Shown piece after piece: positions 10,518 to 54,253 of a stretch of DNA of 64,000 nucleotides (its first letter is position 1; each line of letters starts with the position of its first letter). The position numbers and the translations under genes were made by a program. Below the pieces are notes generated by a model. The model was not told the DNA's origin. It saw nothing but the letters and a program-made list of their open reading frames with translations, and did no database searches. Location of the stretch: the NCBI GenBank assembly GCA_018857735.1, contig JABMCL010002394.1:415001-479000 (forward strand), read 5' to 3'. The stretch is from Alviniconcha marisindica. Lineage: Eukaryota > Mollusca > Gastropoda > Provannidae.

Positions 10518-13500
10518 ATTGGCTTGGTACGGAATGAACTAATCTGCCACATAGTGCACACTTCAAGTTCATTGCATCCACACACACCACACACACACAT
10601 TCTCATACCATTTGAGGATGGCAGACCGACAGGGCTAGAAGCGGATATTGCCCCCCCCCCCCCCCCCCCCCCAAAAATAACCCATTAGAGTGGAGGGGGA
10701 AGGTGTGTGTCCAACACTCCATACCTGTCCACGATCCTGTAGAAGTTGTGACTCCAGGCTTTCAGACAGTCGCTGATCCCCGGAGGGATGTGACCGAGGA
10801 TGTACACCTGTTACAACCGAAAATCTACTTCACTGACCTCAACCAATGACTGTGTTCACTGTTGCTGGCAGTGCAATGAAACCATCCTTTTAACACCACA
10901 ACCAAGTAAAAATGGTTGTAGTAATATTAGATGCACATACTGCAGTGCAGATGATGCATCTGTACAGTCATGCAAGAACCGGGAATTACGGAACTGTACT
11001 TTCGGTCATGCGTGGCCCCGTCATGTCGGCCATGATGCTAACAGTACACAGAATACAACTGGATCACAAAATAACACTTCACAGTTCGTGTACCACGTGC
11101 GTGTGAGTGTGACAGTGGTCTTACATTAAAACAGGCTTTTGGCTTTGGACAGGGGGTTATTTACACAGAAATATGAAGGGAAAAGTGCCAGAGAAAGTGG
11201 TATTGAAAGAGAAGTGGTCTTTCGGTCAGAGGTTCTACTGCACTCCTGCATTATAACAGCTGTGTTAAAAGGTCAGCTTGCCTCGGCTGATGAAGAACTG
11301 ATGATGGTTCAGTGAGTGAGCATGTGAAAACAGAATCAAGGGTCAGTGTTTGTCACGTGCGTCAATGGACAGCTGGGACTTCAAGCATGTGATTTGATGC
11401 ACACCAATGCACCACTGGGGTCTCAAGCTTGTCTTTGTTTGGCTACATGTGTGTCAAAGCACCACTGAGATCTAAACACTGTGAGCTTGTCAGGTGTCAA
11501 TGCACCACTGACATCTAAACACTGTGAGCTTGTCAGGTGTCAATGCACCACTGAGATCTAAACACTGTGAGCTTGTCAGGTGTCAATGCACCACTAAGAA
11601 ATATGACACTGCACATTTGTCAGGTGTCCGTGCACCATGGAGATTTAAACACTGTGAGCTTGTCAGGTGCCAATGCACCACTGAGATCTAAACACCGTGA
11701 ACTTGTCAGGTGTCAATGCCTTAATGAGACCTAAGCACTGTACATTTGTCAGGTGTCAATGCACTACCAAGACCTTAACACTGTATATTTGTCAGGTGTC
11801 AATGCACCACTGAAACCTGAGCACTGTACATTTGCCAGGTGTCAATGCACCACCAAGACCTAAACACTGTACATTTGTCAGGTGTCAATGCACCACTGAG
11901 ACCTGAGCACTGTACATTTGTCAGGAGTCAGTGCACCACTGAGACCTGAGCACTGTATGTTTGTCAGGTGTCAATGCACCACTGAGACCTGAGCACTGTA
12001 TGTTTGTCAGGTGTCAATGCACCACTGAGACCTGAGCACTGTATGTTTGTCAGGTGTCAATGCACCACTGAGACCTGAGCACTGTATGTTTGTCAGGTGT
12101 CAATGCACCATTGAGACCTAAACACTGTACATTTGTCAGGAGTCAGTGCACCACTGTGACCTGAGTACTGTATGTTTGTCAGGTGTCAATGCACCACTGA
12201 GACCTGAGCACTGTATGTATGTCAGGCGTCAGTGCACCACTGAGACCTGAGCACTGTACATTTGTCAGGAGTCGATGCACCGCTGACCTTTTCCTTCTTG
12301 TCCTCAGCATCCTGCAGTGTGTTGATGAGCCAGGCAAGTTGTCCATCAGGGTCAGTGGTGTTGAGATACAGCCACCTGAAACAGACATTCATCTCAACAA
12401 TAATAAGAAACTAAATTAGAATAATCACGAAAATGAATGAACAAGTTATAATCCACCTCACCTGGCCATTTCATATTTCAACCCAAGCAGCACCCACCCT
12501 CCACCTCACCTGGCCATTTCATATTTCAACCCAAGCAGCACCCACCCTCCACCTCACCTGGTCATTTCATATTTCAACCCAAGCAGCACCCACCCTCCAC
12601 CTCACCTGGCCATTTCATATTTCAACCCAAGCAGCACCCACCCTCCATCTCACCTGGCCATTTCATATTTCAACCCAAGCAGCACCCACCCTCCATCTCA
12701 CCTGGCCATTTCATATTTCAACCCAAGCAGCACCCACCCTCCATCTCACCTGGTCATTTCATATTTCAACACAAGCAGCACCCACTCTCCACCTCACCTG
12801 GTCATTTCATATTTCAACCCAAGCAGCACCCACCCTCCACCTCACCTGGCCATTTCATATTTCAACCCAAGCAGCACCCACCCTCCACCTCACCTGGCCA
12901 TTTCATATTTCAACCCAAGCAGCACCCACCCTCCACCTCACCTGGCCATTTCATATTTCAACCCAAGCAGCACCCACCCTCCACCTCACCTGGTCATTTC
13001 ATATTTCAACCCAAGCAGCACCTACCCTCCACCTCACCTGGCCATTTCATATTTCAACCCAAGCAGTCCCCACCTCTGACAGATTTCCATTGTTGAATCT
13101 GAATCGTTGTGGGTTCAGTGGATCGCTGACGAAGAAAGCTACTGTGTCGAAGTAGTTTATGACTGAAAGATTTTATTCTCCCACAGACAAAGAAGTGTAC
13201 TCAGTCCAGACCAAAGACTTACCAGTTCATGTTGTTGCAGGCATTGGTGTTAAGGGAGACAACTCTGAATCCTGGGAAAGGTCTCACTGTGTAATAACCT
13301 CCCCTGCAAGTCAACACAAGTAAATTATCATTACTGGTCTACTGATTGTACGCATGCTTGCACGCACACACGCACACACACACACACACACACCAGTAAA
13401 CATTTCTGGCAGAAAGATGCAGATAATCTAATATTCTCAAGATTTTATTCATGCTGACTTTGTCACTACCATTTTTTAACAACACAACATAGTCACAATA

Positions 13501-13844: not shown

Positions 13845-16800
13845 TGTGTGTGTGTGTGCATTCATGTTGTATGCACTGAATTTTGACAAATATGTGTGAA
13901 CGTATTTGTAGAGAACGTGTAAGCACTTTGGGCCTATCCGGGTTAGGTGCTCTAAGTATTCATTATTATTATTATTATTATTAGTGCACTGGTGGGAACT
14001 ACGGAAGGTTCCATCTCACTCTAAACCCTACTTCTTTCCGCACAGGCTTTTAATCTGACCACCGTGTGGTGATGTGTTGACTGGTGGGTGGGTAATGAAC
14101 TGAGTTGGATTGAGCTTTCAAATGATACAAACGTGCCACATTATATGGCAACTCGTATCTGGTATTATCAATGAACAAGACATTATTTGTGATACCCACT
14201 GCTTATTTTGAAGGTTCTGTTCAGAATCAAGCAGTCTTATTTTGACAGTTTTGTTCCGAATCAGTCTTATTTTGATGGTTTGGTTCAGAATCAGTCTTAT
14301 TTTGCCAGTCTGTTCCGAATCAAGCAGTCTTATTTTGTCAGTTTTGTTCCAAATCAAGCAGTCTTATTTTGATGACTTTGTTCCTTATCAAGGAGTTCTT
14401 ATTCTGACAGTTTTGTTCAGAGTCAAGCGGTCTTATTTCGACTGTCAGGGGTCGCGCTCATTGCAAAATTTTGCGTAAATATTGCATTTTTCGGGTGCCG
14501 TACGCATTTTAGCCACATCGCTGCGTCACCGTACACAAAATGACAACACCGATTAAACAAGCCTTATGCCTCACTGGTGGATGCCGTCACTCGATCAACA
14601 CTAGATCTACTTGCAAACTCAGTGCCATCTCAGCCGTTCAAGTCAGTCAATGAAGGGCGGAATCTGGACAGCAAAATAAACGCGTAACTCCCTGTAAGCT
14701 ACCGTAATTTTTGAACTATAAGGTGACGGTGAAACTTTTCCTAAAATCTTACTCATGCCGCACCTTATAGTCGGTAGTGCCCTGTCTGTGAATAAAATTC
14801 GCACACTTTTCCAAAAAAAAAGCAACTATTAATTTGAATTCTAACGAACCTGTATGGATCTGGAAGAAGATTGGTTCCCATATCAGACATGGCCGAACTG
14901 ATCAGTGATATTTTCCGGTTAATCGACGGAGGACACAATCCCAGATATGGAATTTGGAACCACCCAGTATGCCTACTTTGTCAGCTGTAATATCATCAGA
15001 ATTCACTCAAAGGTAGAAGACGACAAAACTGAAAACAAAACACTGTCACACCGAATACAAATGAGAGAAAATGGCGGCAGCTTCGACTTCAACTTCATCT
15101 CGTTACTAAATCCTGCGGTAATGAGAACTAGGTTTGCTGACATCGTCTGCTGCAGTTCTTCCTTTAAAAATGATGCTGTGTGCATGTTCCAATCTATTCA
15201 AACTTTTTATGTGAAAGGCAAATTTACTGAACGTTACCACATTTTTTGTGCACGGATAGACCTTCCTTTTACTATTTTCGTCTGCTCACATTACAGACCA
15301 TGAGCTACAATCAGGTTACTATCATTCTGGCTTTGTAATGTGCATTAATTCTAGGTTATACTGTACGCATTTTTTGTGCCATTGACGCAAAATACGTAAT
15401 GTTTCGATCGGTTGACGCAAATCTCTAAAAGGCAGCGCAACCCCTGACCGTTTAGTCCAGATTCAAGCAGTTTGTTCCGAATCAAGCAGTCTTATTTTGT
15501 CAGTTTTGTTCTGAATCAAGCATTCTTATTTCAATGGTTTTGTTCCAGATCAGGCAGTCTTATTTTGATGGTTTTGTTCAGAATCAAGCAGTCTTATTTT
15601 GACAATTTTATCCAGAATCAAGCACTTACTTTGGCAGTTTGTTCCAAATCAACAGTCTTATTTTGTCAGTTTTGTTCCGAATCAAGCAGTCTTATTTTGA
15701 TGGCTTTGTTCCAGATCAAGCAGTCTTATTATGATGGTTTTGTTCCAAATCAAGCAGTCTTATTTTGATGGTTTTGTTCCAAATCAAGCAGTCTTATTTT
15801 GACAGTTTTGTTCCAGATCAAGCAGTCTTATTTTGTTGGTTTTATTCCAAATCAAGCAGTGTTATTTTGAAGGTTATGTTCTGAATCAAGCAGTCTTATT
15901 TTGAAGGTTATGTTCTGAATCAAGCAGTCTTATTTTGAAGGTTTTGTTCCAAATCAGCAGTCTTATTTTGAAGGTTATGTTCTGAATCAAGCAGTCCTAT
16001 TTTGAAGGTTTTGTCCAAGAATAAACAGTGTTTTGTTGCAATGGTATGCTTTAGCTTGTGAGGAAAACATGGCAACCGTCCTGTCAAGTTTTCACATAGA
16101 ATACTGCCACACTCCAATCGGTAAGTCCGCAGGTGACTGGCCGCCCAGAACTCATCACTGGTTTCAGATTTACGAAAGGTTTAAAAAAATAATCCCATTT
16201 GAATAATCCCCTCCCTGAGTCCACCATCTAGCCTTGACTTTGTATACTTACACATCCTGACACACCTTTACAGTAAGACTAAGAGGCCACAGAATGAGGT
16301 TGAATATCTGTCGACTTGAATGAATGAATGAATGAAAATTTATATATAACGCATAAAAAACTTCCACACAAAACCTTGCGTGTTCACAGTGCCAGATACA
16401 CACAGTGCATACATGTAAGCTCTCGCAAGCTAAAACTACCAAAGGACACTCATACCAAAAGGTACAAACAGCTCCTACCCACCCACCCCTTCCTAAAAGT
16501 GGAACTATACATAGCAGTTAAATGTAAAAATATATACAGAGTTACAAATAATGATAACAGAAGAAAAAAGAAAGAAAGAATCACATGCACACACACACAC
16601 ACACACACACAAACACAGTAATTATGGCAACATCAGCTTCACTTAACACACACACCAGAGCAGGCGCACATACACAATCGCATTGACTATCATCCCTAGG
16701 TAAAGAAATGGGTTTTCCGCGAAAGTCTGAAAGACTGAATGGAGTCCTCCTTGATGCTCTCGGGGAGGACATTCCAGAGGGAGGGAGCGACATATCTGAA

Positions 16801-22400: not shown

Positions 22401-24097
22401 CAACATCAGCACACACAGAATGAGCCAACCTGGTTAAAAAAATCAACTTCAAGCTACACACGCTCAGCACCAACACACAGACCGTGACAGAGTGTGAGTC
22501 AACTGTGCTGCAGCAACAAACGCTTAGCATGGTCACCGTATTCATTATTGCTCAACATCAACACTACCCTCTCTAAACTAGCCCCATTTCACACACACAC
22601 ACACACATTTGTACATGCTACAACTACTAACTGGCGATAAATTACAAGTAATTACTTACAGGAGAGCCTGCAGTAAGACATTTCTCTAACAGAAGGACCA
22701 TGGCCTCTGAGGACATTTCAACGGTAAAACCATGGGTTCAAAAGCATTTGACCTGCACTTCTGAAAGACTTCAGAGCCCCAAAGGGAGGTCACTCACACT
22801 GTGTCACAAAACAGGCCCAAGCATCAATAGCCTTTAAGCTGTTACTGGTCTTTGGGCTTTCAGAAATGATACGATACCTTGGGCAGAACATGTGGAACCA
22901 GTGGGGGCTTTGGTGTATCAGGAAATGTCACGTTCCACATGTCAAAAGGCCAGTAAGCCTTGCCGCAGGTTGACCCAAATGCCACACCACACACTTCCTC
23001 CGGACTCAGGACCAGATTGTCAAACACTGTCAGCGCTTCATCCTGGAATAACATGTATACATGCTTATATAAAAAAAAATCTTATTAAAAGATATTAGAA
23101 GAAAACAAAAACAAATCCTGTCATTGGATTAATAAAGTTGTCTTTTATCTTGTATCTAGACCTTTTATTACATTCAAAATAGAAAATTCTAGATTTTTAT
23201 GGAAAGTTCAGACCCTCCTTCCTGTGACCTTGAAGATGAATCATCGTATAAGAATTGGTATACACAAATAATGTCCAACTGACATTATTGTCACTGGAAG
23301 TCAGAAAGTGCAAGATTGCATCGTAAACAGTATCCAAAACCTCAATATCTAGGTTTTTGTCAAGTCAGAAAATGTGTCAGTTACTAGTTATGTCCCTTGA
23401 CTACACATTAGTTAGTTAGTTGGTGCTTTGAGCCCAGTCAACCACAAAGGGTTATATTAGGGCTAATTGACTACATGTACAGTTACCAAAAGTGCAAATG
23501 TACATGTATACATGTATGACAGATAGTGGCTAGGCATATGTTATATGTAAACAATCAATCATATTGGCTATTGGCTATGCACATGTAAATAATCATATGA
23601 AATTGTGAGGACAATCTGATAAAACCTTGTCAAAGAAAAAGAAAAAAAACTTTTGGTTTGACCGTTTCATGCATCTAACCTACATTAATTTTGCTTACCT
23701 TAAACATGTTGATAAGGCCAACACACACTCGTTCATCCACTTCACCCAAAAAGATGCACAGCTTGGTGGCATCGTTCACAATCTTCTCATCTGACCACCC
23801 CGAACTTAACGCAGTTTGCACAAATCCCACCACAACTTTGCAGACGGTGCAGGTGACAGAATTCAGACTGTGAATCTGGCTGTCCTTCAGAGTACCCCGA
23901 GTGCCTCTCCTGGCATTCTGACTGCGGATACTTGCAGACTTCACCAGAGGTGCTACCTGGCCGGGCGGGACCAGATACGCTTCTGTCTTAAAGATAAGTG
24001 GTTTGGCGGATGCCAAGCCAAGTGGTCCTGGTGACAAGACAAGGACAAGGACAAGGACTAGGAGTAGGCCAGCAAGTTCACACAGCAGCATCTTCAT
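2382..24097 (-). CDS. SMPD1: Acid sphingomyelinase, complete 13-exon gene
   Basis: This gene encodes an acid sphingomyelinase, which hydrolyses sphingomyelin to ceramide and phosphocholine in lysosomes or after secretion. I joined 13 exons (23699-24097, 22878-23042, 22260-22383, 20703-20803, 16829-16998, 13627-13737, 13223-13303, 12288-12375, 10725-10807, 8091-8283, 7028-7120, 4597-4691, 2382-2556). Every junction is GT-AG and every phase matches, giving 625 codons plus a stop; human SMPD1 is about 630. Domain order is: signal peptide (about 1-30), saposin-B domain with six cysteines (83, 86, 114, 125, 151, 159), metallophosphoesterase domain with LTDIHLD (D201, H203), WTGDLPAH (D272, H276), GNHE (N312, H313), GHIPPG (H419) and GHTH (H453, H455), then a cysteine-rich C-terminus. 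All expected metal and catalytic residues are present and I saw no frameshift. The saposin domain argues against SMPDL3-type paralogues. Confidence 0.95.
2557..3840. repeat. Minisatellite in SMPD1 intron 12, 54-bp unit
   Basis: Degenerate units of roughly 110 bp (2557-3180) give way to regular 54-bp units (about 3378-3838) of the form TTACCTGGAGACAACATGCA followed by AGTCAAGGTAACAGACTGTC. The units resemble the exon 13 splice acceptor region. Confidence 0.9.
4597..4691 (-). CDS. SMPD1: SMPD1 exon 12: C-terminal domain helix
   Basis: Residues 537-567 plus two bases. The acceptor is tttgcag and the donor gttagt, a weaker donor supported by the phase match to exon 13. It encodes [20 protein letters not shown], the helical part of the C-terminal domain. 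Confidence 0.9.
4780..4862. repeat. (AC)n-rich microsatellite
   Basis: Interrupted ACGCATGCAC and (AC)n units in SMPD1 intron 11. Confidence 0.85.
4863..5160. repeat. Dispersed repeat, copy 1
   Basis: Shares long blocks (AGCAGCACGGAACAGAAAAC, GAGTCCAGAGA, GGTCATTCCATG, GGGAACCAACAG) with 17335-17690, another SMPD1 intron. The family is not recognised. Confidence 0.65.
5440..5670. mobile_element. Foldback / MITE-like element
   Basis: The left arm ATCAACCCGCAAGGGAGTTA is matched in reverse complement by the right arm ending CTCCCTTGTGGGTTGAG. Internal blocks CAACAACAAAGACC(C/T)GAGT are also inverted around a centre near 5550. About 230 bp, no coding capacity. Confidence 0.7.
5983..6136 (+). 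other. Exon-like open segment, plus strand
   Basis: Open frame ending in [10 protein letters not shown] immediately before a strong donor (CAG/gtgagt at 6137). It encodes a small hydrophobic stretch ([19 protein letters not shown]). It lies inside SMPD1 intron 11 on the opposite strand. No clear acceptor was identified and no family recognised, so this may be chance. Confidence 0.2.
7028..7120 (-). CDS. SMPD1: SMPD1 exon 11: [11 protein letters not shown] segment
   Basis: Residues 506-536, phase 0 at both ends. The acceptor is tcccag and the donor gtgaga. [11 protein letters not shown] is strongly conserved in SMPD1. The acceptor and the first 27 coding bases are repeated three more times upstream. 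Confidence 0.94.
7094..7540 (-). repeat. 115-bp tandem repeat containing the exon 11 acceptor
   Basis: GATGTAGGTCTC starts at 7094, 7209, 7324 and 7439. The first unit overlaps the true exon 11. Each later unit repeats the acceptor tcccag and the first 27 coding bases, then adds a donor-like GTGAG(T/C), giving 46-bp pseudo-exons at 7190-7235, 7305-7350 and 7420-7465. Confidence 0.9.
7545..7920. repeat. Diverged direct duplication in intron 10
   Basis: Two units of about 165-175 bp share blocks such as GTGCAAAAC(T/C), CCAGATCCGATCTGG-like sequence, GGCCAAAC and GCAAGCTGGT. Confidence 0.55.
8091..8283 (-). CDS. SMPD1: SMPD1 exon 10: GHTH motif
   Basis: Residues 441-505. The acceptor is ccctcag and the donor gtaggt. 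It contains [13 protein letters not shown] (H453, H455), the last metal-binding motif, and ends near DGNYSGSSW, which in the family precedes the end of the catalytic domain. Confidence 0.95.
8757..8820. repeat. (GT)n microsatellite
   Basis: Nearly pure GT repeat with one interruption, in SMPD1 intron 9. Confidence 0.95.
8930..8990 (+). mobile_element. LINE 3' tail fragment
   Basis: GCACTTTGAGCCGCAGAGTA followed by GGCGCTTTACAAAT and an ATT-rich end, the common 3' tail form of CR1/L2-type LINEs and SINEs that borrow it. Confidence 0.5.
9770..9970. repeat. Two diverged tandem units
   Basis: GGACCCTGGCTAGGTACGCA and GCAGACCCTGGTGAGGTACA begin two similar units of about 120 bp, each ending near TTAATAGATGAAAA or TTAACAGATGAAAA. 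Confidence 0.6.
10053..10340 (+). mobile_element. tRNA-derived SINE
   Basis: The head 10053-10128 is tRNA-like, with an A box (TAGCCCAGCTGGTAGAGC) and a B box (GGTTTGATTCCAC). It is followed by a body with CATGTTAAAAATCCCA. The tRNA folding is not preserved, so it is a SINE promoter rather than a tRNA gene. Confidence 0.8.
10449..10673. repeat. (GT)n and poly-C tracts
   Basis: A (GT)n of about 33 units at 10449-10515 and a run of about 22 C at 10651-10672, in intron 9, upstream (plus-strand sense) of exon 9. Confidence 0.95.
10725..10807 (-). CDS. SMPD1: SMPD1 exon 9: GHIPPG motif
   Basis: Residues 414-440 plus two bases. The acceptor is gtaacag and the donor gtatgg. It carries GHIPPG (H419, a metal ligand) and a following [13 protein letters not shown] block typical of the enzyme. 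Confidence 0.94.
11400..12287. repeat. 43-bp minisatellite filling intron 8
   Basis: About 20 copies of a unit near TGTCAATGCACCACTGAGAC plus CTGAGCACTGTA and TTTGTCAGG. The last unit overlaps the exon 8 splice donor. Confidence 0.92.
12288..12375 (-). CDS. SMPD1: SMPD1 exon 8: DPDGQLAWL segment
   Basis: Residues 384-413. The acceptor is gtttcag and the donor gtcagc. It encodes [20 protein letters not shown], the family block before GHIPPG. The donor lies inside the first unit of a long 43-bp minisatellite that fills the next intron. Confidence 0.92.
12464..13072. repeat. 48-bp minisatellite in intron 7
   Basis: About 13 copies of a 48-bp unit containing CACCTGGCCATTTCATATTT. Because 48 is a multiple of three, it keeps a 240-codon plus-strand frame open, but this is a repeat artefact inside an intron of the opposite-strand gene. 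Confidence 0.93.
13223..13303 (-). CDS. SMPD1: SMPD1 exon 7: [18 protein letters not shown]
   Basis: Residues 357-383 plus two bases. The acceptor is cttgcag and the donor gtaagt. It encodes a core beta-strand segment of the phosphoesterase fold ([12 protein letters not shown]), with good family similarity. Confidence 0.92.
13627..13737 (-). CDS. SMPD1: SMPD1 exon 6: helical [10 protein letters not shown] segment
   Basis: Residues 320-356 plus two bases. The acceptor is ttccag and the donor gtgggt. The [19 protein letters not shown] stretch matches the region after GNHE in acid sphingomyelinases. Confidence 0.92.
13797..13990 (+). mobile_element. (GT)n and LINE 3' tail fragment
   Basis: (GT)n at about 13797-13858, then GTAAGCACTTTGGGCCTATC and GGTTAGGTGCTCTAAGTATT ending in (ATT)n, a LINE or SINE 3' tail form. 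Confidence 0.55.
14205..14445. repeat. 33-bp minisatellite, left part
   Basis: Units near AATCAAGCAGTCTTATTTTG plus ATGGTTTTGTTCC. The array is interrupted at 14446 by an hAT-like insertion and resumes at 15447. Confidence 0.9.
14446..15446. mobile_element. Non-autonomous hAT-like DNA transposon
   Basis: A 1,001-bp block with inverted ends CAGGGGTCGCGCT and (reverse complement) CAGGGGTTGCGCT. Subterminal motifs of the TTTGCGT and GTACGCATTTT kind appear near both ends. CAGGGG ends and length suit a non-autonomous hAT element. Flanks are GACTGT and GACCGT, so no exact 8-bp target duplication is seen. A 118-codon open frame (14947-15303) has no recognised domain. Confidence 0.72.
15447..16015. 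repeat. 33-bp minisatellite, right part
   Basis: Continuation of the array at 14205-14445 with the same unit, about 17 further copies. Confidence 0.9.
16581..16625. repeat. (AC)n microsatellite
   Basis: Short AC run in intron 5. Confidence 0.85.
16693..16812 (-). mobile_element. LINE ORF2 C-terminal fragment
   Basis: On the minus strand it encodes [18 protein letters not shown] and ends LSRKTHFFT before a stop. This matches the YxAPxLWNxLP signature at the end of CR1/L2-like reverse transcriptase ORFs. It lies 16 bp beyond the exon 5 donor. Confidence 0.75.
16829..16998 (-). CDS. SMPD1: SMPD1 exon 5: WTGDLPAH and GNHE motifs
   Basis: Residues 264-320. The acceptor is gttgcag and the donor gtaatc. 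It carries the bridging aspartate motif WTGDLPAH (D272, H276) and GNHE (N312, H313), plus NQT and NLT sequons. The acceptor side abuts an 89-bp tandem repeat array. Confidence 0.94.
17000..18335. repeat. 89-bp tandem repeat in intron 4
   Basis: Units contain GCAAGCTGGCAGATATCCCA and CAGCAGCAGTGCAACATTCT; exact 89-bp spacing at 17901, 17990 and 18079. Interrupted by the dispersed repeat at 17335-17690 and a (GT)n near 17800. The sequence next to exon 5 (17000-17030) is part of the unit. Confidence 0.9.
17335..17690. repeat. Dispersed repeat, copy 2
   Basis: Second copy of the repeat at 4863-5160, in the same orientation. It is preceded in both places by TTAAAGTATTTGTAAA(A)-type sequence and an (AC)n tract, so the shared unit may start earlier. 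Confidence 0.65.
18784..19140 (+). mobile_element. 0.3-kb SINE-like repeat, copy 1
   Basis: Contains GGTCATTCTGCCAAAA, GCTTTGCATGAAGTGACATG, CACTTCGGTGGATATTCAAA and ends AGCGCTATATAAGCGATCAT before a (TCAA)n tail. Other copies lie at 42095-42390 (inverted) and 45071-45362. Confidence 0.8.
19146..19650 (+). mobile_element. LINE ORF2 C-terminus and 3' tail
   Basis: Encodes a decayed end ([16 protein letters not shown] ... [11 protein letters not shown]) that matches CR1/L2-like LINE ORF2 termini. A (GT)n of about 36 units at 19424-19498 follows, then a tail GTAAAGCACAGTG ... GGCACTATAGAAATG with (ATT)n. Confidence 0.75.
19778..20680. mobile_element. Non-autonomous hAT-like DNA transposon
   Basis: A 903-bp block with perfect 13-bp inverted ends CAGAGCTGCCAAC and GTTGGCAGCTCTG. 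Further near-terminal inverted matches involve GTAGTA and GTAGCA motifs. Flanking sequences share GACGG but no exact 8-bp duplication is visible. A 78-codon frame at 20012-20248 has no recognised domain. Confidence 0.8.
20703..20803 (-). CDS. SMPD1: SMPD1 exon 4: YGDYRNCD segment
   Basis: Residues 230-263. The acceptor is tgacag and the donor gtactc. [12 protein letters not shown] matches the GYWG(E/D)YxxCD block conserved between the first two catalytic motifs of the family. An hAT-like element ends only 22 bp beyond this exon's donor side. Confidence 0.9.
20804..22259. other. Intron 3, no gene seen
   Basis: AT-rich with short (GT)n runs near 21168 and 21472. I see no coding or recognisable mobile sequence. 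Confidence 0.6.
22260..22383 (-). CDS. SMPD1: SMPD1 exon 3: first metallophosphoesterase motif
   Basis: Residues 189-230 (the last codon is split). The acceptor is gctgcag and the donor gtacca. It contains HLTDIHLD, the first metal-binding block (D201 and H203), followed by a CKEPLCC segment typical of acid sphingomyelinases. Confidence 0.93.
22878..23042 (-). CDS. SMPD1: SMPD1 exon 2: end of saposin B and proline-rich linker
   Basis: Residues 134-188. The acceptor is ttccag and the donor gtatcg; both ends are phase 0. It carries saposin cysteines 151 and 159, an NVT glycosylation sequon and the proline-rich linker ([10 protein letters not shown]) that leads into the catalytic domain. Confidence 0.92.
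23043..23698. other. Intron 1, short dispersed-repeat fragment
   Basis: Contains TTAGTTGGTGCTTTGAGCCC followed by AGTCAACCACAAAGGG at about 23407-23470. This resembles the GTTGGTGTTTTACGACCAGT fragments at 48750 and 53660. Otherwise featureless. Confidence 0.5.
23699..24097 (-). CDS. SMPD1: SMPD1 exon 1: signal peptide and start of saposin B
   Basis: This exon encodes residues 1-133. I chose the ATG at 24097 because it directly precedes a hydrophobic leader; the open frame upstream begins only with GTG. The leader contains an alternating Leu-Val run encoded by a hexanucleotide repeat. Cysteines 83, 86, 114 and 125 are the first four of the saposin-B pattern. The exon ends in ...AACATGTTTAAG before the donor gtaagc, phase 0. 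Confidence 0.93.
24036..24060 (-). repeat. Coding hexanucleotide repeat in signal peptide
   Basis: On the coding strand this is a run of CTTGTC-like hexamers that encode an alternating Leu-Val core of the SMPD1 signal peptide. Confidence 0.85.
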
Positions 24098-24426
24098 CCT
24101 GGCTGATTGAAACTGCTCCACTCATCAACGTCATTCAGCAGCCTCCATGCAGAACTGTTGTCATGCAAAACAAGGAAGAAAATCATATCTAATACCACGG
24201 CATGCAATGGTTTTGTTTTGTGAAAGTAATACCAACAAGTACTGTTCAGCACCTCGCACAACAAACAAATTTCTGAGGGAAATCAATAATCATGTACTGT
24301 GTAGATAATGTCCAGTAATTGTACCATGGTGGTTGTTCCACATTCAGTTTTGGTATCCTTACCTAATCATCTGCTGAATTTGGTGGTGATACAGCTTGTT
24401 AAAGTTATATATTATATATATATATG

Positions 24427-28743: not shown

Positions 28744-28819
28744 GTCACTTCGGACATTTGAAGAAAGAGACTGGAGGGAACTTGCCTCCATTTTTGAGTT
28801 ACCTGAAGAATTTGTCTAG
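28744..28819 (+). pseudogene. AID/APOBEC-like deaminase, C-terminal fragment (copy a)
   Basis: Encodes RTFEERDWRELASIFELPEEF and then a stop. Over this stretch it is nearly identical to the C-terminal part of the deaminase copy at 31330-31974. No zinc-binding motif is included, so it is a partial duplicate. The upstream sequence of the same open frame (from 28616) is not recognisably deaminase. Confidence 0.65.
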
Positions 28820-28884: not shown

Positions 28885-29545
28885 TACCACAACTGAGCAG
28901 ATTGAAAACTTTGTGAATTGGGGTGATACTAATTACTTGTATTTGAATGTTTCCAAAACGAAAGAGATGTGCATTGATTCAGTATAGCCTAAGAATCAAA
29001 GACGCCCCAAACCAGTCTACATTAAAGGAGAAGCAGCAGAGAGAGTAGACACATACAAGTACTTAGGTGTGTCACGGTGTGGTTTTTGATAGTAAATTGA
29101 ATTGGAAAGAGAACATCAACTGAGTCTGTGGCTGAAAAAAGTGAACTCGAGAATGTATTGCATGAGAAAGCTGAGATAATTTGGAGTCAATTCAGATATG
29201 CTAGTAACTTTTTATAATGCTGTAATATGTAGTCTTATTATGTTTGGGTTCTGTCTGTTGGTGGAAATATTTCAAAATTTGATAGAGGGAGCTTAGAAAA
29301 GATTGTAAAAAAAAAGAGAGAGCAGGTGGTGCTTGTGGGAAAGCCATTGGACAGTTTTAAGACTCTACATGAAAAGAGACTGTCGAGTCAGTACAGAAAA
29401 CTAATGCAAATATTAAATGATCCTACACATCCAATGAGACACTACTTTTATAGCAGATGCAGCAACAGGAGTGGAAGATCACAGTTTTACTCCCAAGAAC
29501 ATACACAAACCGTTATAAAGCCTCGTTTTTACCCTCGGCTCTGAC
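28885..29545 (+). mobile_element. Reverse transcriptase 3' fragment of a LINE
   Basis: Decayed frames read LYLNVSKTKEMCID, KGEAAERVDTYKYLGV and RKLMQILNDPTHPMRHYF, the order found in the thumb and C-terminal region of Rex1/CR1-like reverse transcriptases. Several stops and frameshifts. It separates deaminase copies a and b. Confidence 0.8.
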
Positions 29546-29694: not shown

Positions 29695-29699
29695 TTTGC

Positions 29700-29950
29700 C
29701 AGAGCGGCAGAAATGTATTACGCAGAGTTCAAGATCTTTGAGAACAGCCAGCCTACACGGCGCCGACTGGCCAAAGAAGGCCGCTGTGCCGTTGTGCCCA
29801 AACATGTCTTTGGTGGACTGCTTGTTGTCCCCAATGAGTCAGTTCAGGGAAAAGACTCAGAAGAGATGCTGAGTTCGTGAACTGGAACAGTATTTGGAGG
29901 AAAACCGTGACGTACTGCCGACAGAACGACCTGTTCCACTGAAATTTTCG
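29700..29950 (+). pseudogene. AID/APOBEC-like deaminase, N-terminal fragment (copy b)
   Basis: The ATG at 29713 has the same upstream context (AGAGCGGCAGAA) as copy c, and the DNA is alignable with copy c for about 240 bp, through the segment just before the PCxxC motif. It is disabled: the first zinc ligand position reads KDSEE instead of THSEE (His to Asp), a stop follows soon after, and the PCxxC half is missing. Confidence 0.75.
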
Positions 29951-29959
29951 TAAATAAGC

Positions 29960-30130
29960 CGCGCTTACTTCAATGGCACACGCTAGTGATACTCTTATTT
30001 GCACACCCAGACATACAAGGGCTGATGGGAAGGCTGCAGGGAACATTTCATCAGAGTATATGAAACAACTACATAATAGTTAATACTCTCGATAATACCC
30101 CCAAAAATCATACCGTGTCAGAGAGACGAG
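29960..30130. repeat. Duplicated 0.17-kb segment, copy 1
   Basis: TTACTTCAATGGCACACGCT to ATGAAACAACTACATAAT is almost identical to 34275-34445. Both copies run into a (GA)n tract. Confidence 0.9.
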
Positions 30131-30134
30131 AGAG

Positions 30135-30195
<61 letters not shown>

Positions 30196-31122: not shown

Positions 31123-31329
31123 TGCTAGACGATGCTAAAACCCGGACCGGAGTTTGTCAGTCAGTACACAGCGGTCCTGGTGGATGCTGCAAGTACTACA
31201 TAGGTCCGAGTGTCTCGTCTCTTCAAGTTCTTCATGCAGTGCTGACTGATATAGCCACGCCTTTAGCTGCCTATGACAGTATCCTGCACTGACATAAACG
31301 ATATCAGAGTGATTAGCCAACTGAGCCTC

Positions 31330-31974
31330 GCTGATTTTCGCCAGAGCGGCAGAAATGTCGCATTACGAAAAGTTCGAAATCTTTGTGAACAGTCAGCTGC
31401 ACGGCGCCAACTGGCCAAAGGAGGCCTGTGCCGTTGTGTCAAAAGATGTCTTTGGCACACCAGAACCATTTGTTGTCCGCAATCAAGTTCATGGAACACA
31501 CTCAGAAGAGGAGCTGATTCATGCACTGAAACAGTATTTGGAGCAAAACCGTGACGTTCTGCCGAAAAAACGACCTGTTTCACTGAAACTTTTCTTGAAT
31601 TATTCACCATGTTATGACTGCAGCAGTCTTCTAATAAATTTTTTATAAATGACTGCAAGAGTATATTTAAGCTAAAAATTTCACTTCAAGTTGTGTTCTC
31701 TGGGATATATAACATTGCGAGGCCGTCGTGCGAGCGAGGTGAGTGTGGTATATAGTCACAGGTGCAATCACGTGGAGGAGAACATTAAAGGGCTCCTACT
31801 GATTCGGCACGGGGCGAAGCTTCGGACATTTAAAAAAAGAGACTGGAGGGAACTTGCCTCCATTTTTGAGTTACCTGAAGAGTTTGCCGCGGCAGCCATT
31901 GAAAGGAGAGAAATAGAAGATAGTCGCATGCGACGGGACTTACAGGAACTGTTGCCGGGACAGAGTTTCGGAAG
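31330..31974 (+). CDS. AID/APOBEC-like cytidine deaminase (copy c)
   Basis: Probable zinc-dependent polynucleotide cytidine deaminase of the AID/APOBEC-like group. From the ATG at 31355 it encodes KFEIFVNSQLHGANWPKEA, then HSE (H49, E51) and, 34 residues later, SPCYDC (C86, C89): the HxE and PCxxC zinc signature. A stop follows at a T6 run near 31640. Homologous sequence continues one frame over (SLQVVFSGIYNIARPSC), then returns to the first frame (HVEENIKGLL ... KRDWRELASIF) and ends at a consensus donor (GAAG/gtaagt at 31975). The two shifts cancel, so either this is a young pseudogene, the T-run is miscalled, or the GCGAG/gtgagt near 31737 is a real intron start. An acceptor-like ttttcgccag precedes the exon. 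Confidence 0.75.
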
Positions 31975-32106
31975 GTAAGTAGCCTAATAACAAATTCTTA
32001 ATTACTATGATGTGACAAACAGTTATATCGCGCCCTATCACTAGATATTTATACTGGATCTCCAATGCATTTGGTTTTGTATCCTGTAAATGTTAATACA
32101 TGAATA

Positions 32107-32400
32107 TAGTTAGCTCATGTCAGCTGTGAGCGGCCGCGTGCCAGTCTGTACCGAGACGAAGCCGAACGAGGCGTGTCGGAGAGCCTGCCGAGCCAAGCTA
32201 GCACTAGCGTGCTCAGCACTAGCACTAGCACTAGCACTAGCGTGCTCAGCAGTGCCGACGCAGAGCTTGCAGTCATTCCCATGACATCCGACACTTGCCG
32301 AGTCGTGTGGAGCTCTGGATGTGAGCCGTGCCGCGCTCTTATCTGACAGACCTGCCTGCATTTGACAATGTTTAAGATTTAATACGTAGACCGTCTTCCA
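32107..32400 (+). repeat. MSAVS module fragment with (ACTAGC)n expansion
   Basis: Shares GAGACGAAGCCGAACGAGGC and CATTCCCATGACATCCGACA with modules at 46985-47262, 48805-49316 and 53716-54245. An ACTAGC hexamer is expanded at about 32200-32240, which breaks the small reading frame of the other copies. Confidence 0.85.
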
Positions 32401-34274: not shown

Positions 34275-34406
34275 AATTACTTCAATGGCACACGCTAGTG
34301 ATACTTTTATTTGCACACCCAGACATACAAGGGCTGATGGGAAGGCTGCAGGGAACATTTCATCAGAGTATATGAAACAACTACATAATTTAAACTCTCG
34401 ATAATA

Positions 34407-34437
<31 letters not shown>

Positions 34438-34445
34438 ATACGTGT
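34275..34445. repeat. Duplicated 0.17-kb segment, copy 2
   Basis: Copy of 29960-30130. It differs by a longer poly-C run at about 34409-34426. Confidence 0.9.

Positions 34446-34449
<4 letters not shown>

Positions 34450-34521
<72 letters not shown>
34450..34521. repeat. (GA)n microsatellite
   Basis: About 36 GA units after the 34275-34445 duplicate. Confidence 0.95.
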
Positions 34522-39738: not shown

Positions 39739-39929
39739 GGCATTAACGCAAGCAAGTCACTGGTCAAAACTATGCGTCATTCTGTTGCGAAGTTTTGCGA
39801 CAGTGAGCGCGGTTCGCAAGAAAAGAAAAGAAAAATTCGGCCCCGCCCTGCTTTCCCGGGCCGTCACTCTGAAAACGACCGATAAAAGTGCCAAATTTAA
39901 AACTAGTTTTTAAGCGTGTGTGTGACGAG

Positions 39930-42075
39930 GCAGGCCAGAAGTACTATAGTGCAGTGGCTTGTCTCTGGGCAGGCCAGAGGTACTATAGTGTAGTGAGCTC
40001 GTCTCTGGCAGGCCAGAAGTACTATAGTGAGTGGCTTGTTCTGGGCAGGCCAGAGGTACTATAGTGTAGTGACTCGTCTTGGCGGCCAGAATACTATAGT
40101 GCAGTGGCTTGTCTCTGGGCAGGCCAGAGGTACTATAGTGTAGTGAGCTCGTCTCTGGCAGGCCAGAATACTATAGTGCAGTGGCTTGTCTCTGGGCAGG
40201 CCAGAGGTACTATAGTGAGTGAGCTCGTCTCTGGCAGGCCAGATTACTATAGTGCAGTAGCTCGTCTCTGGGCAGGCCAGAGGTACTATAGTGAGTGAGC
40301 TCGTCTCTGGCAGGCCAGAGGTACTATCTATAGTGCAGTGAGCTTGTCTTGGGCAGGCCAGAGGTTCTATACTATAGTGAGTAGCTCGTCTCTGGGCAGG
40401 CCAGAGGTATTTTAGTGAGTGAGCTCGTCTCTGGGCAGGCCAAGGTTTTTATAGTGAGTGAGCTCGTCTCTGGGCAGGCCAGAGGTATTATAGTGAGTGA
40501 GCTCGTCTCTGGGCAGGCCAGAGGTACTATACTATAGTGCAGTGAGCTCGTCTCTGGGCAGGCCAGAGGTACTATACTATAGTGCAGTGAGCTTGTCTCT
40601 GGGCAGGCCAAAGGTATTATAGTGTAGTGAGTTTGTCTCTGGGCAGGCCAGAGGTATTTTGTTAGTGCAGTGAGCTTGTCTCTGGGCAGGCCAGAGGTAT
40701 TATAGTGTAGTGAGCTCGTCTCTGGGCAGGCCAGAGGTACTATACTATAGTGCAGTGAGCTTGTCTATGGGCAGGCCAGAGGTATTATAGTGTAGTGAGC
40801 TCGTCTCTGGGCAGGCCAGAGGTACTATACTATAGTGCAGTGAGCTTGTCTATGGGCAGGCCAGAGGTATTATAGTGTAGTGAGCTCGTCTCTGGGCAGG
40901 CCAGAGGTACTATACTATAGTGCAGTGAGCTCGTCTCTGGGCAGGCCAGAGGTACTATACTATAGTGCAGTGAGCTCCCTCTCTGGGCAGGCCAGAGGTA
41001 CTATACTATATGTAGTGAGCTCGTCTCTGGGCAGGCCAGAGGTACTATACTATAGTGCAGTGAGCTCGTCTCTGTGCAGGCCAGAGGTACTATACTATAG
41101 TGCAGTGAGCTTGTCTCTGGGCAGGCCAGAGGTACTATAGTGCAGTGAGCTCGTCTCTGGGCAGGCCAGAGGTACTATACTATAGTGTAGTGAGCTCGTC
41201 TTTGGGCAGGCCAGAGGTACTATACTATAGTGCAGTGAGCTCGTCTCTGGGCAGGCCAGAGGTTTAGTGCAGTGAGCTTGTCTCTGGGCAGGCCAGAGGT
41301 ACTATACTATAGTGCAGTGAGCTCGTCTCTGGGCAGGGCCCGAGGTACTATAGTGTAAAATGAGCCCCCGTCTTTTTGGGGAGGCCAAGGTACTATACTA
41401 AAAGTGCAGTTTAGCTTTTGTCTCCCGGGGAGGCCCGAGGTACTAAAAGTATAGTGCCCGTGAGTTTTGTCCCCCTGGGCAGGCCAGAAAGGGACCCAAT
41501 ACAAAAAGTGTTTTTGGGCTCGTCCTCTTTGGGGAGGCCAGAAAGGGACTATACTATAGTGGGAGTGAAACTCCCTCTCTGGGCAGGGCCCGATTTTTCT
41601 ATAGTGGGGAGTGACTTTTTCCCCCTGGGCAGGCCAGAAAGGGACCCCATACTAAAAAGTGCAGTGAGCTCTTCCCCCTGGGCAGGCCAGAAAGGGAAAA
41701 TTATAGTAAAAGTGCAGTGAAGGGTTCGTCTCTGGGGAGGCCCCCGAGGTTTTCATAGTAAAAAAATGCAAATGAAATTCCCTCCCCCTGGGGAGGCCAA
41801 GGTTTCCCAAATTTTTTCTATGTGGGTGACCCCGTCTCTGGGCAAAAGGCCCCGAGGTTTCTTTTACTATATTTCAGTGGGGGCCTTTGGGCCCCTTTTG
41901 GGGAGGCCCCGAGGTACTATACATAGTGCAGTGAGCCCCGTCCCCCCTGGGCAGGCCAAAGGTATTATAGTGTAGTGAGCTCGTCTCTGGGCAGGCCAGA
42001 GGTATTATAGTGTAGTGATCGAGCTTGTCTCTGGGCAGGCCAGAGGTACTATAGCGTAGTGAGCTCGTCGTGTGT
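39930..42075. repeat. 2.1-kb minisatellite, about 45-bp unit
   Basis: About 45 units based on AGTGAGCTCGTCTCTGGGCA plus GGCCAGAGGTACTATACTAT. From about 41330 to 41960 the units are disturbed, with inflated homopolymers (for example CCCCCTGGGCAGGCCAGAAA), then become regular again. Confidence 0.93.
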
Positions 42076-43908: not shown

Positions 43909-44489
43909 TCAGCTGATTGCTTGCCTGATTAGGGCAGCCATTTTTCGTTTGCCACCAGCATTTGTGATTTGGTCTTTCTTTCTTTGCCACAGGCATTTGT
44001 GGTCTGTTCTTTCTTTCTTTCTTTGCCACAGGCATTTGTGGTATAATCTCTTTCTTTCACGGCCTTTTCTGCCGTAGGCATTCGTGTTAGACTTTTGTCT
44101 TTGCCTTGTTAGCGCTTGTTTCAGGGTATCAGTGTATCTCTCAATTTTTGGTATCATGCTGTGCGCTTGCTGCTCGTCAGCTTCATCCTTGGAGATTCGA
44201 ACTGGAATTTTTTCCAAGTCGGTTATCCTGTGGACAGCCCTACAAATTCCGCTTGGAAGCAAACCCCATTTGGTATTCCGTCATAAAGTTTACGAAATCG
44301 CACTCAGCGAACTGCTCGCTACACAAATGGGCGTGACTGAGGCGCAGCATCAAAGTCAGCTCGTTTGAATTGTACAAATTTGACCCATTTTCGCCTCACA
44401 GCGGGTCGATTCCGCGGGAACTCGTGCATAGTTATGCTTTGGGTTGCTTGTGAGTTGTTACAGTTTGCTGCAACACAGGAGGCCGGCAT
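43909..44489 (-). pseudogene. THAP zinc-finger domain gene, frameshifted
   Basis: THAP domains are C2CH zinc fingers that bind DNA, common in chromatin factors and P-element-type transposases. From the ATG at 44489 it encodes MPASCVAANC, then HEFPRNRPAVRRKWVKF. After one frameshift near 44335 it reads LCSEQFAECDF and GFASKRNL, and after a second shift RAVHRITDLEKIPVRISKDE followed by a basic, lysine- and arginine-rich tail to the stop near 43909. The usual CSEHF histidine is replaced by glutamine. The tail contains a repeated KCLWQRKKE. The order of blocks is right for THAP; the frame breaks may be real or consensus errors. Confidence 0.75.
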
Positions 44490-44977
44490 GGTTAGAGCTT
44501 TTTGTCGACCACACACATACACATTCAATGAACAATCTAAGATAGCAACCGCACTGACTCCCCAGACTGACGTTACTTCCGAGAAAGTCACGTGACTGAT
44601 GGAGAACCCGAGACAGCAGTCCCGGCCAGCCTACAGAAAATAAATTCGATTAAAAACCAACATAAACATTTATTTTTATTTTTTATTTAATTAAATCTCA
44701 AACTAGTGACTCATTTGTCAATCATTTCGATTGTCATTTTGCATACTTAGAAACCTTGGACTTTTCCTTTAACATCCACGGAAACCTAATACGGTTTATT
44801 AGGGACAACAAAAGTTGGAAATTCTTCTTTCTTTCACGATGCTTAATTTCTGCAGAATCCACATGTTCAAAGTAAAAACCTTAATATTTTTTATCCTCAA
44901 TGATTGCAGTTTTTTCTTCCAAAATCCGCAGGTTGAGGCGCCTCGCAGAATGCAATGGCGGCGACAGGTTACGGCTG

Positions 44978-47144: not shown

Positions 47145-47262
47145 AATGGTAGTACCGAATTTCAGTCGGTCATGTCAGCTCTGAGACGTGCCAGTCTGTA
47201 CCGAGACGAAGCCGAACGAGGCGTGTCGGAGAGCCTGCCGAGCCAAGCTAGCACTAGCACGA
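46985..47262 (+). repeat. MSAVS / (CT)n module, copy 1 (truncated)
   Basis: Contains TACTGCTACCGTTCTCTTTT, a (CT)n tract, then the start of the conserved segment GAGACGAAGCCGAACGAGGC. It is fused at about 47262 directly to retroelement sequence homologous to 52181 onwards. Confidence 0.85.
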
Positions 47263-48795
47263 CGGAGTGGCGGCGAGTGAAGCAAGCCATGCCGACCGAG
47301 ACGAGGTAACAACCAACGACAAAGGTGACAACGCCACCAGCAACACAAACATCAGAGGGGAATGAATCCCCAACGGAACGTGCACTTGCCGAAAACCCGG
47401 CTATGTCAAGGCAGCCGGAGCAGTGTCACGGACTTCACGCTCAGATCGGGCACGCAAGCCACGTGCTCTCAATCAAGCCAGTATCTCGGACACTTTCAAA
47501 AGAGTGCAAGTGAGCGGCAAGTTAAGCAGCGTCACAAACCAAGAAACCGACAGGGGACTATCACTGTCGCAGGCGAAAAGATGCAGCTCCACAAAAAGAT
47601 AGGAAACTGGCCGGGCCCCAAGGAATACATACCTGAAACACAGCACGCATGTAGATATACCGAACACACTTGACAATGTCCAGAGTACAGGGTCTGTACT
47701 TTCATCTTTTTCTTCCATTAATGGTAAAATGACTCTTGATATTTGTAGTAGAACATTTCTGGGCTGCTCTCCAAATTATACAATGTTGCGTTTGTGAATT
47801 ACATCACATCTGTTGATTTCGTATGCTTAAAGGAAACATATATTGCGTCTGATTTTGATTCAGGGATTTTGGTCTTTTGTTGCCAAAGCTAAAAAGGTTT
47901 CATAGCACGGAAGACTGTCAGGGGGCGTGTTGGTACTTGTAAGGAAACGTTTTTTACCGTTCGTGGAGCAATGCACGTTGATGTGGGCAATGTGGTAGTG
48001 CTACGAATGAAGAAGGCTTTATTGGAACAGATAAGGATGTAATGTTTATCGCTGCATGTCTGCCACCCTATGACTCGAACTACCGGAAAGTAACGCAGCA
48101 CGGTTATTGTGTGGAGATCACTGAAAAGTGCGTTATGGACCTGCATGATGTAACCGGCGATTTCTCTCTGCTCCTGTGTGGTGACCTAAATGCTCGGACT
48201 GCATCAGAGAACTATAATCAAGTTCAAGATGATTGCGAAGACGTATTTGCTCAAGTGTGCGACTGCTTCCCCAGGAAATCCCAGGATAATCACACGAACG
48301 TTTTCAGCCAACAGCTAATAGAATTGTGTAACATGTGTGAGTGTCTCATTCTAAACGGTCTGTCGGAGCATGGGTTTGATGACAGCTGTACTTTTGTCTC
48401 ATACTTCGGATCAAGTCTTGTAGACTATTTCCTTTAGTCTTGCGATATGTTATCCTCCGTATGCATTACTTCCTAAGAAATTAAAAACATGATCGAATCT
48501 GATCACCTTCCCGTTGTCTTAGCCATTAATGTATCACAGAACGCTGCACTTGCCGTTGCTCGGAGTAACACCATTCTGAACCCACCAGCAATGCAACAAC
48601 CAAATAACGCGGTCAGTAGCCTACACCACTTAGGTGGATATTAAAAAACGCGCTATAAAAAAAAAGAGAAATAGTCGATAGTTTAGAATCACATGCAATA
48701 TGAGCGCAGTGAGTCTGTTCGCTGAGAGGAACATTAAGTAAGTAAGTTGGTGTTTTACGACCAGTCAACCATTCCAGAGTAAAAAATAACCTATA
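47263..48795 (+). mobile_element. Non-LTR element copy A: ORF1 3' end and endonuclease
   Basis: About 95% or more identical to 52181-53715. The frame at 48042-48437 encodes an endonuclease/exonuclease/phosphatase domain with LLLCGDLNART, then LIELCNMCECLILNGL, CTFVSYFGSSLVDYFL and, after a stop, ESDHLPVVLAI. Upstream it carries YITSVDFVCLKETYI. No reverse transcriptase follows; instead there is a GGTGGATATTAAAAAACGCG tail and a GTTGGTGTTTTACGACCAGT fragment. Confidence 0.85.
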
Positions 48796-48804
48796 TAAAA
48801 GCAA

Positions 48805-48932
48805 ATGTTTTTAAATTATTTTTGGCCTGTTGCTAGTGTTCTTATCAAGTTGCGGTATTTCCTACTACTATTATCACTGCTTCTCACTAATACTGAAATT
48901 ACTGCTACCGTTCTCTTTTCACTAAAATCCTT

Positions 48933-48994
<62 letters not shown>

Positions 48995-49310
48995 CATAAA
49001 TGGTACCTGCATTTAAGTAGGTCATGTCAGCTGTGAGCCGTGCCAGTCTGTACTGAGACGAAGCCGAACGAGGCGTGTCGGAGAGCCTGCCGAGCCAAGC
49101 TAGCACTAGCGTGCTCAGCAGTGCCGACGCAGAGCCTGCAGTCATTCCCATGACATCCGACACTTGCCGAGTCGTGTGGAACTCTGGATGTGAGCCGTGC
49201 CGCGCTCTTATTTGACAGACCTGCCTGCATTTGATAATGTCCTAGAGTTTCTTTTTCCCACTGACTCAGTGTTGCAATAGTGTTTTCAGTTTCGATAATG
49301 GGTGTGTGTT

Positions 49311-49316
<6 letters not shown>
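48805..49316 (+). repeat. MSAVS / (CT)n module, copy 2
   Basis: Full module: TACTGCTACCGTTCTC, (CT)n at about 48938-48990, the 63-codon MSAVSRASLY frame (here broken by TGA), and TGATAATGTCCTAGAGTTTC leading to a second (CT)n at 49316-49400. Confidence 0.88.
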
Positions 49317-49387
<71 letters not shown>

Positions 49388-52577: not shown

Positions 52578-52639
52578 CAATGTCCAGAGTACAGGGTCTG
52601 TACTTTCATCTTTTTCTTCCATTAATGGTAAAATGACTC

Positions 52640-53715
52640 TTGATATTTGTCGTAGAACATTTCTGGGCTGCTCTCCAAATTATACAATGTTGCGTTTGTG
52701 AATTACATCACATCTGTTGATTTTGTATGCTTAACGGAAAAATATATTGCGTCTGATTTTGATTCAGGGATTTTGGTCTTTTGTTGCCAAAGCTAAAAAG
52801 GTTTCATAGCACGGAAGACTGTCAGGTGGCGTGTTGGTACTTGTAAGGAAACGTTTTTTACCGTTCGTGGAGCAATGCACGTTGATGTGGGCAATGTGGT
52901 AGTGCTACGAATGAAGAAGGCTTTATTTGGAACAGATAAAGATGTAACGTTTATCGCTGCATGTCTGCCACCCTATGACTCGAACTACTGGAAAGTAACG
53001 CAGCACAGTTATTGTGTGGAGATCACTGAAAAGTGTGTTATGGACCTGCATGATGTAACCGACGATTTCTCTCTGCTCCTGTGTGGTGACCTAAATGCTC
53101 GGACTGCATCAGAGAACTATAATCAAGTTCAAGATGATTGCGAAGACGTATTTGCTCAAGTGTGCGACTGCTTCCCCAGGAAATCCCAGGATTTTTTTTC
53201 TATTTTTCTTCTTCAGCCAACAGCTAATAGAATTGTGTAACATGTGTGAGTGTCTCATTCTAAACGGTCTGTCGGAGCATGGGTTTGATGACAGCTGTAC
53301 TTTTGTCTCATACTTCGGATCAAGTCTTGTAGACTATTTCCTTTAGTCTTGCGATATGTTATCCTCTGTATGCATTACTTCCTAAGAAATTAAAAACATG
53401 ATCGAATCTGATCACCTTCCCGTTGTCTTAGCCATTAATGTATCACAGAACGCTGCACTTGCCGTTGCTCGGAGTAACACCATTCTGAACCCACCAGCAA
53501 TGCAACAACCAAATAACGCGGTCAGTAGCCTACACCACTTAGGTGGATATTAAAAAACGCGCTATAAAAAAAGAAAGATAGTCGATAGTTTAGAATCACA
53601 TGCAATATGAGCGCAGTGAGTCTGTTCGCTGAGAGGAACATTAAGTAAGTAAGTTGGTGTTTTACGACCAGTCAACCATTCCAGAGTAAAAAATAACGCT
53701 ATATAAAAGCAAATG
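52640..53715 (+). mobile_element. Non-LTR element copy B: endonuclease domain, no reverse transcriptase
   Basis: Same endonuclease as copy A (VTFIAACLPPYDSNYWK, LLLCGDLNART). A T-rich replacement at about 53190-53215 disrupts the frame before QQLIELCNMCECLILNGL. It ends with ESDHLPVVLAI and the same non-coding tail as copy A. Confidence 0.85.
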
Positions 53716-53849
53716 TTTTTTAAATTATTTTTGGCCTGTTGTTAGTGTTCTTATCAAGTTGCGGTATTTCCTACTACTATTATCACTGCTTCTACACTGA
53801 ATACTGAAATTACTGCTACCGTTCTCTTTTCACTAAAATCCTATTACCC

Positions 53850-53904
<55 letters not shown>

Positions 53905-54221: not shown

Positions 54222-54245
<24 letters not shown>
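53716..54245 (+). repeat. MSAVS / (CT)n module, copy 4, with intact 63-codon frame
   Basis: Like copy 2 but with the small frame open from 53933 to 54124. The frame starts MSAVSRASLYRDEAERGV and ends CEPCRALI. (CT)n tracts at about 53850-53900 and 54223-54245. Confidence 0.85.

Positions 54246-54253
<8 letters not shown>

Follow-up and report, generated by a model that had tools for sequence, protein, structure and literature searches.

A putative AID/APOBEC-like cytidine deaminase exon, frame-broken as sequenced, and two decayed neighbouring copies in the gastropod Alviniconcha marisindica

Introduction

AID/APOBEC-like genes outside the vertebrates have been published since at least 2018, with homologues reported from sea urchin and brachiopod (PMC5956068); an initial annotation of the locus studied here had called such enzymes poorly described, and they are in fact better described than this implied. 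According to the same report, tissues that are constantly exposed to microbes show an enrichment of these sea-urchin and brachiopod homologues, and when the homologues were assayed in E. coli some were active and some were not. The sea-urchin proteins consist of a single domain of ~190-200 residues and come from multigene sets with frame-shifted loci, while AIDL1 of Lingula has two domains (PMC5956068). In molluscs, three APOBEC3-like genes are reported from the gastropod Aplysia (PMC9334734), and oyster proteins are listed as related to the genes of Lingula (PMC5956068).

Here we describe a locus in a window of 64,000 nucleotides of A. marisindica DNA (contig JABMCL010002394.1, positions 415,001 to 479,000, forward strand; all coordinates below refer to this window). 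Judged from motifs, profiles and copy structure, positions 31345-31974 are very probably coding DNA of an animal AID/APOBEC-like polynucleotide cytidine deaminase, in a small tandem family with at least two decayed neighbouring copies. We call the near-complete sequence copy C and its neighbours relics A and B. Like the sea-urchin and Lingula proteins, copy C carries a pfam08210 domain and the signature H[AVS]E-x(24-36)-PCxxC, and it is similar to the sea-urchin proteins in its single domain, its size, its multigene setting and its frame-shifted state; it is unlike the two-domain AIDL1, to which it is likened by description and not by sequence (PMC5956068). The Aplysia and oyster genes, also compared by description only, have in common with it that they are AID/APOBEC-like genes of molluscs (PMC9334734, PMC5956068). 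Some of the published relatives come with activity data (PMC5956068), whereas copy C, known as a sequence, has a broken frame. It is a further AID/APOBEC-like gene of the published kind, damaged as sequenced.

Layout of the deaminase locus

Copy C, ~630 bases in length, was read over 31330-31974 on the plus strand as three adjoining coding segments (Table 1), each of them free of stop codons. The first opens with MSHYEKFEIF and reads MSHYEKF...THSEEEL...LNYSPCYDCSSLLINF; the second reads INDCKSIFKLKISLQVVFSGIYNIARPSCERGECG; the third starts with YSHRCNHVEENIKGLLLIRHGAKLRTFKKRDWRELASIFEL and ends with SFGR, and 22 of its codons are found again in relic A. By eye, the elements follow one another in the order of AID/APOBEC proteins. 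Visual inspection downstream of the ATG at 31355 revealed no evident signal peptide, although an upstream exon could carry one; the SNADs are described as having a signal peptide (PMC11004436).

As sequenced, no single frame of copy C yields the full domain. The frame shifts near 31643 and again near 31750, ~107 bases further on, and a reading kept in frame 2 throughout runs into stops at 31646 and 31673. The first of these shifts sits on a run of six T, where segments 1 and 2 adjoin with nothing missing; no intron that would account for it was found, and an indel is the sole explanation that we found. This shift, together with the neighbouring relics, speaks against an intact gene. The C-terminal half that had been expected to run up to a consensus donor is present, and GGAAG/GTAAGT does stand at its end, but the domain is spread over more than one reading frame. 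Since AGGTRAGT occurs four times on the plus strand of the window, two of these at copy C (31737 and 31973), each donor of copy C, taken singly, is weak evidence.

Table 1. Positions of the deaminase copies and their parts within the window (slashes mark presumed splice borders).
Feature	Position	Strand	Details and basis
Relic A, further copy, 67-bp fragment of the 3' half	28748..28814	+	self-comparison, tblastn
Relic B, second copy, covering the 5' part of this exon, with broken frames	29695..29955	+	self-comparison, tblastn
Acceptor-like site of copy C	before 31345	+	TTTTCGCCAG
Putative exon, copy C, near-complete AID/APOBEC-like domain (split in two should the 52-base intron exist)	31345..31974	+	borders inferred from sequence
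First coding segment, 96 codons, with HSE and SPCYDC	31355..31642	+	frame 2; Pfam NAD1 and APOBEC_N on 31325-31645
HSE codons, residues 49-51 counted from the ATG; His predicted to bind zinc, Glu predicted to be catalytic	31499..31507	+	translation
PCYDC codons, residues 85-89, expected zinc-binding Cys pair	31607..31621	+	translation
Second coding segment, 35 codons, strand and Cys-containing loop	31645..31749	+	frame 1
Possible intron, 52 bases, GAG/GTGAGT ... TTAAAG/GG	31739..31790	+	frame arithmetic, Pfam scores, site context
Third coding segment, 75 codons, up to the donor-like site	31751..31975	+	frame 2; shuffled controls, recurrence in relic A
Donor-like site GGAAG/GTAAGT closing copy C	GT at 31975-31976	+	

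Assignment to the AID/APOBEC family

The HxE and SPCxxC motifs of the initial annotation stand: HSE and PCYDC are separated by 33 residues, and this arrangement, HSE-x33-PCYDC, is the single match in six frames of the window to H[AVS]E-x(24-36)-PCxxC, the published AID/APOBEC-like signature (PMC5956068). The same signature appeared in two of 300 simulated windows (first-order Markov). The assignment to AID/APOBEC-like deaminases that had been proposed was likewise borne out by curated Pfam cut-offs, both for the untouched first frame and for a read-through of the three segments. In the untouched frame (107 aa, 31325-31645), NAD1 scored 27.9 bits (E 3e-6, cut-off 27) and APOBEC_N 25.7 bits (cut-off 25). 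For the 207-aa read-through, APOBEC_N reached 35.9 bits, SNAD4 (PF18750) 34.9, NAD1 (PF18778) 34.7, APOBEC4 (PF18775) 32.0 and APOBEC2 (PF18772) 30.8, all above their cut-offs and with a best E of ~1e-8; the matches cover positions 39-139 of 170 in APOBEC_N and 3-73 of 74 in APOBEC4. Because five families exceed their cut-offs and only 1.2 bits separate the best three, no single clade is singled out; NAD1, for one, is described from vertebrates (PMC8201067). The AID profile itself (PF18767) gave 13.0 bits on the read-through against a cut-off of 27.3, and although the superfamily and the catalytic motif are common to both, copy C is by profile not AID proper.

Profile coverage and shuffled controls indicate that the domain of the read-through extends across the strand and helices of the C-terminal part. 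When the second half was shuffled (nine controls made, six scanned with Pfam), APOBEC_N scored 23.8-26.1 and NAD1 25.3-29.9, and the APOBEC_N match stopped at residue 98-100 in six of six; the gain of the read-through was gone in all six, from which we conclude that the second half belongs to the deaminase domain. One shuffled control still exceeded the cut-offs (NAD1 29.9, APOBEC_N 26.1), essentially from its first half. Taken by itself, the second half matched no AID/APOBEC profile in Pfam even at E 10, so that its profile support depends on the first half being present.

For segment 2, the frame-1 reading was compared with a frame-2 reading whose two stops were masked as X. Frame 1 raised APOBEC_N from 31.6 to 35.9, SNAD4 from 30.8 to 34.9, APOBEC4 from 27.4 to 32.0 and NAD1 from 32.7 to 34.7 bits, the gain over these four and APOBEC2 spanning 2.0-4.6 bits, while APOBEC4_like fell from 20.9 to 18.6 and APOBEC1 from 20.2 to 18.5 (losses of 2.3 and 1.7 bits). 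There is thus moderate support from the profiles for frame 1 in segment 2.

Sequence searches of the PDB gave nothing significant; the only APOBEC entry, 6x91, appeared at E 0.97 and 0.65, below unrelated chains. An AlphaFold2 model of the first 97 residues only, made from the single sequence with no alignment, was poor (mean pLDDT 48.8), and Foldseek with this model returned 77 matches at E up to 10, none of them at 0.001, with no deaminase among the 50 of 77 matches listed; the model being too poor to use, we attach no weight to either outcome. Pattern searches for related loci yielded no relatives among 97 matches in bacterial and archaeal genomes and none among five matches in viral contigs.

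Excess loop length and a possible short intron

Unless it contains an intron, the loop after strand 4 appears to exceed the length expected from the NAD1, SNAD4, APOBEC4 and APOBEC2 profiles by ~18 residues. This excess may be due to an intron or to a genuine Cys/His-rich insertion, or to the two together with an indel. The initial annotation had proposed splicing at an internal GCGAG/gtgagt, and excision of 31739-31790 from this donor does put the third segment back in frame, while the four closest AGs after GTGAGT (introns of 17, 23, 39 and 42 bases) do not. The donor GAG/GTGAGT is a strong match to the consensus, and the acceptor lacks a clear pyrimidine tract. With the 52 bases taken out, SNAD4 rose from 34.9 to 43.2, NAD1 from 34.7 to 43.0, APOBEC2 from 30.8 to 41.1 and APOBEC_N from 35.9 to 40.5 bits, and with the loop cut by 18 residues the APOBEC2 match extends to position 172 of 175.

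As a control, seven other deletions of 18 residues, at offsets of -12 to +8 residues, were scanned beside the exact intron version, and these scored 36.1-43.8 for SNAD4, 36.2-43.4 for NAD1, 32.1-39.8 for APOBEC2 and 32.9-41.4 for APOBEC_N. Deletions moved N-terminally by 5 or 3 residues gave SNAD4 43.8 and 42.6, against 43.2 for the exact intron, and at offset -5 APOBEC4 scored 41.0 as opposed to 32.3; the exact intron tops the eight versions for APOBEC2, APOBEC3 and NAD2 only. Since the shifted deletions score alike, the gain from excision mostly reflects the long loop. The proposed splice restores the frame and raises the scores but is not specifically supported; we regard the 52-base intron as possible and do not favour it.

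Neighbouring copies

Relics A and B and copy C share one orientation and lie within 3.3 kb. Relic B aligns to copy C with 219 identities, 35 substitutions and 17 gap columns (tblastn E 4e-9 and 2e-4, in two frames), and the similarity begins at a common acceptor-like TTYGCCAG/AGCGGCAGAAATG (29695 in relic B, 31337 in copy C) and stops ahead of the Cys motif. In relic B, HSE reads DSE, so the catalytic His is lost. The 34 substitutions in the coding overlap are distributed 15/10/9 over codon positions 1/2/3; with no third-position excess, they give no sign of constraint between B and C. Relic A is identical to 31820-31886 at 64 of 67 bases (tblastn E 9e-9). To us, the locus looks like a small tandem family that is losing copies by birth and death.

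Between relics A and B there is, by eye, apparently an RT-like tail (~28.83-29.54 kb), within which an ORF at 29233-29541 had no Pfam match. Ten bases past relic B begins a duplicated segment (29965-30193, repeated at 34277-34520), which includes 113 bases at 99% identity and runs into a GA microsatellite; it may mark a duplication boundary.

Repeats and editing traces in the window

The window holds two copies of a 2-kb repeat (47259-49337 and 52178-54246) at 96% identity. Their alignment contains 40 substitutions and 14 gap events, and nine of the gaps involve one base (a blastn tally gave 38 mismatches and 20 gap openings). The substitutions include 18 C/T and 9 A/G changes; seven of the C/T changes precede G, as expected from ordinary CpG decay, and ten of the 40, within 48288-48302 next to a gap, are probably alignment noise. 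An action of the deaminase on nearby retroelements, suggested at first from its position among them, finds no support here: this one pair of unpolarised copies, a comparison of low power, bears no clear editing trace. Across the window, short interruptions of GT, AC, GA and CT microsatellites number 24, of which 18 are single-base deletions and one is a substitution, a pattern associated with uncorrected long reads.

Just downstream of the deaminase, 32087-32371 is related to the 2-kb repeat, with 32231-32371 at 97-99% identity to a part near the repeat end. LINE-type pieces at 61191-63614 on the minus strand match Exo_endo_phos_2 endonuclease and RVT_1 reverse transcriptase in several frames, and a THAP domain at 44322-44630, also on the minus strand (Pfam 28.9 bits, cut-off 23.9), possibly belongs to a transposase or a THAP gene. 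A minus-strand ORF at 23678-24121 begins like saposin B (SapB_1 21.3 bits, below the cut-off of 25.2) and has a hydrophobic leader; we take it to resemble the N-terminus of acid sphingomyelinase, but it had no match in the PDB sequence search. The marginal TRAM hit at 3161-3550 on the plus strand (22.0 bits, cut-off 21), which overlaps a tandem array and of which no stretch passes alone, is probably due to chance. Large tandem arrays occupy 39929-42069, 12452-13074, 11451-12286 and 15468-16048, that at 12452-13074 having a 48-base unit open in all three plus frames. After complexity filtering there were 248 ORFs of at least 60 aa in the window, and 23 ORF pieces were scanned with Pfam. Neither Rfam at gathering thresholds nor ARAGORN found a match in the window.

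Alternative explanations

That the motifs merely match by chance within non-coding DNA is hardly credible: the signature alone does turn up in simulated windows, but the Pfam E values of both the raw frame and the read-through argue against it, as do relics A and B, which repeat the sequence elsewhere in the window. Another zinc deaminase family that merely resembles AID/APOBEC, be it one acting on free-nucleotide cytidine or dCMP or one of bacterial toxin type, is very unlikely; XOO_2897-deam reached 15.8 bits on the read-through and dCMP_cyt_deam_1 13.0 bits in the first frame, yet both are far under their cut-offs (27 and 25), whereas five AID/APOBEC families exceed theirs. We also consider it improbable, though less so than either of these, that copy C represents a non-vertebrate AID/APOBEC-like clade that no one Pfam model captures, with a single exon holding the whole catalytic domain, an extra ~18-residue Cys/His-rich loop after strand 4 (SCERGEC...HRCNH) that could hold a second metal ion, and tandem birth and death like that of mammalian APOBEC3; the possible intron lowers the odds of such an extra-loop clade further.

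The more difficult question concerns the fate of copy C and not its family. The prospect that it is a dead pseudogene, its frame lost through real indels as in relics A and B, we put slightly below even. In favour of decay, copy C has two frame shifts close together, the two relics, one of them without its catalytic His, lie beside it, and the substitutions between B and C lack a third-position excess; in the sea-urchin reference genome, too, five of nine loci are frame-shifted (PMC5956068). Against decay stand three stop-free segments with both zinc motifs intact, the signs of single-base deletion errors in the window, and a second frame shift that could be a short intron, which, being possible, lowers the odds of a pseudogene and raises those of a working gene. 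We see an even chance that copy C is functional and that its frame is broken only in the assembly by single-base indels, the second shift possibly being the 52-base intron. The position of the first shift at a T run, the lack of stops and the strong donor all fit this reading, and the indel patterns of the microsatellites and of the repeat pair make assembly indels plausible, if not proven. However, these indel counts are drawn from repeats, which mutate in life too, and the intron would be very short and its acceptor weak, with shifted deletions of equal size scoring as well. On balance, we give about the same weight to copy C being a pseudogene of recent origin and to its being a working gene whose frame is broken by assembly indels, whether or not the short intron is real.

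Proposed function and significance

By homology, an intact relative of copy C would hold one zinc ion by the histidine of HSE and both cysteines of PCYDC, with the glutamate of HSE acting as proton shuttle, and would deaminate C to U on single-stranded DNA or RNA. Its most likely role would be innate defence against viruses or mobile elements, by analogy with what has been proposed for the sea-urchin and brachiopod homologues.

By itself, the copy C locus leaves the published picture unchanged. AID/APOBEC-like genes outside the vertebrates bear on the age of immunity by cytidine deamination, and one near-complete copy with two relics within such a short stretch illustrates on a small scale the rapid turnover, by gain and loss of copies, that one would expect where an immune gene is in conflict with parasites.
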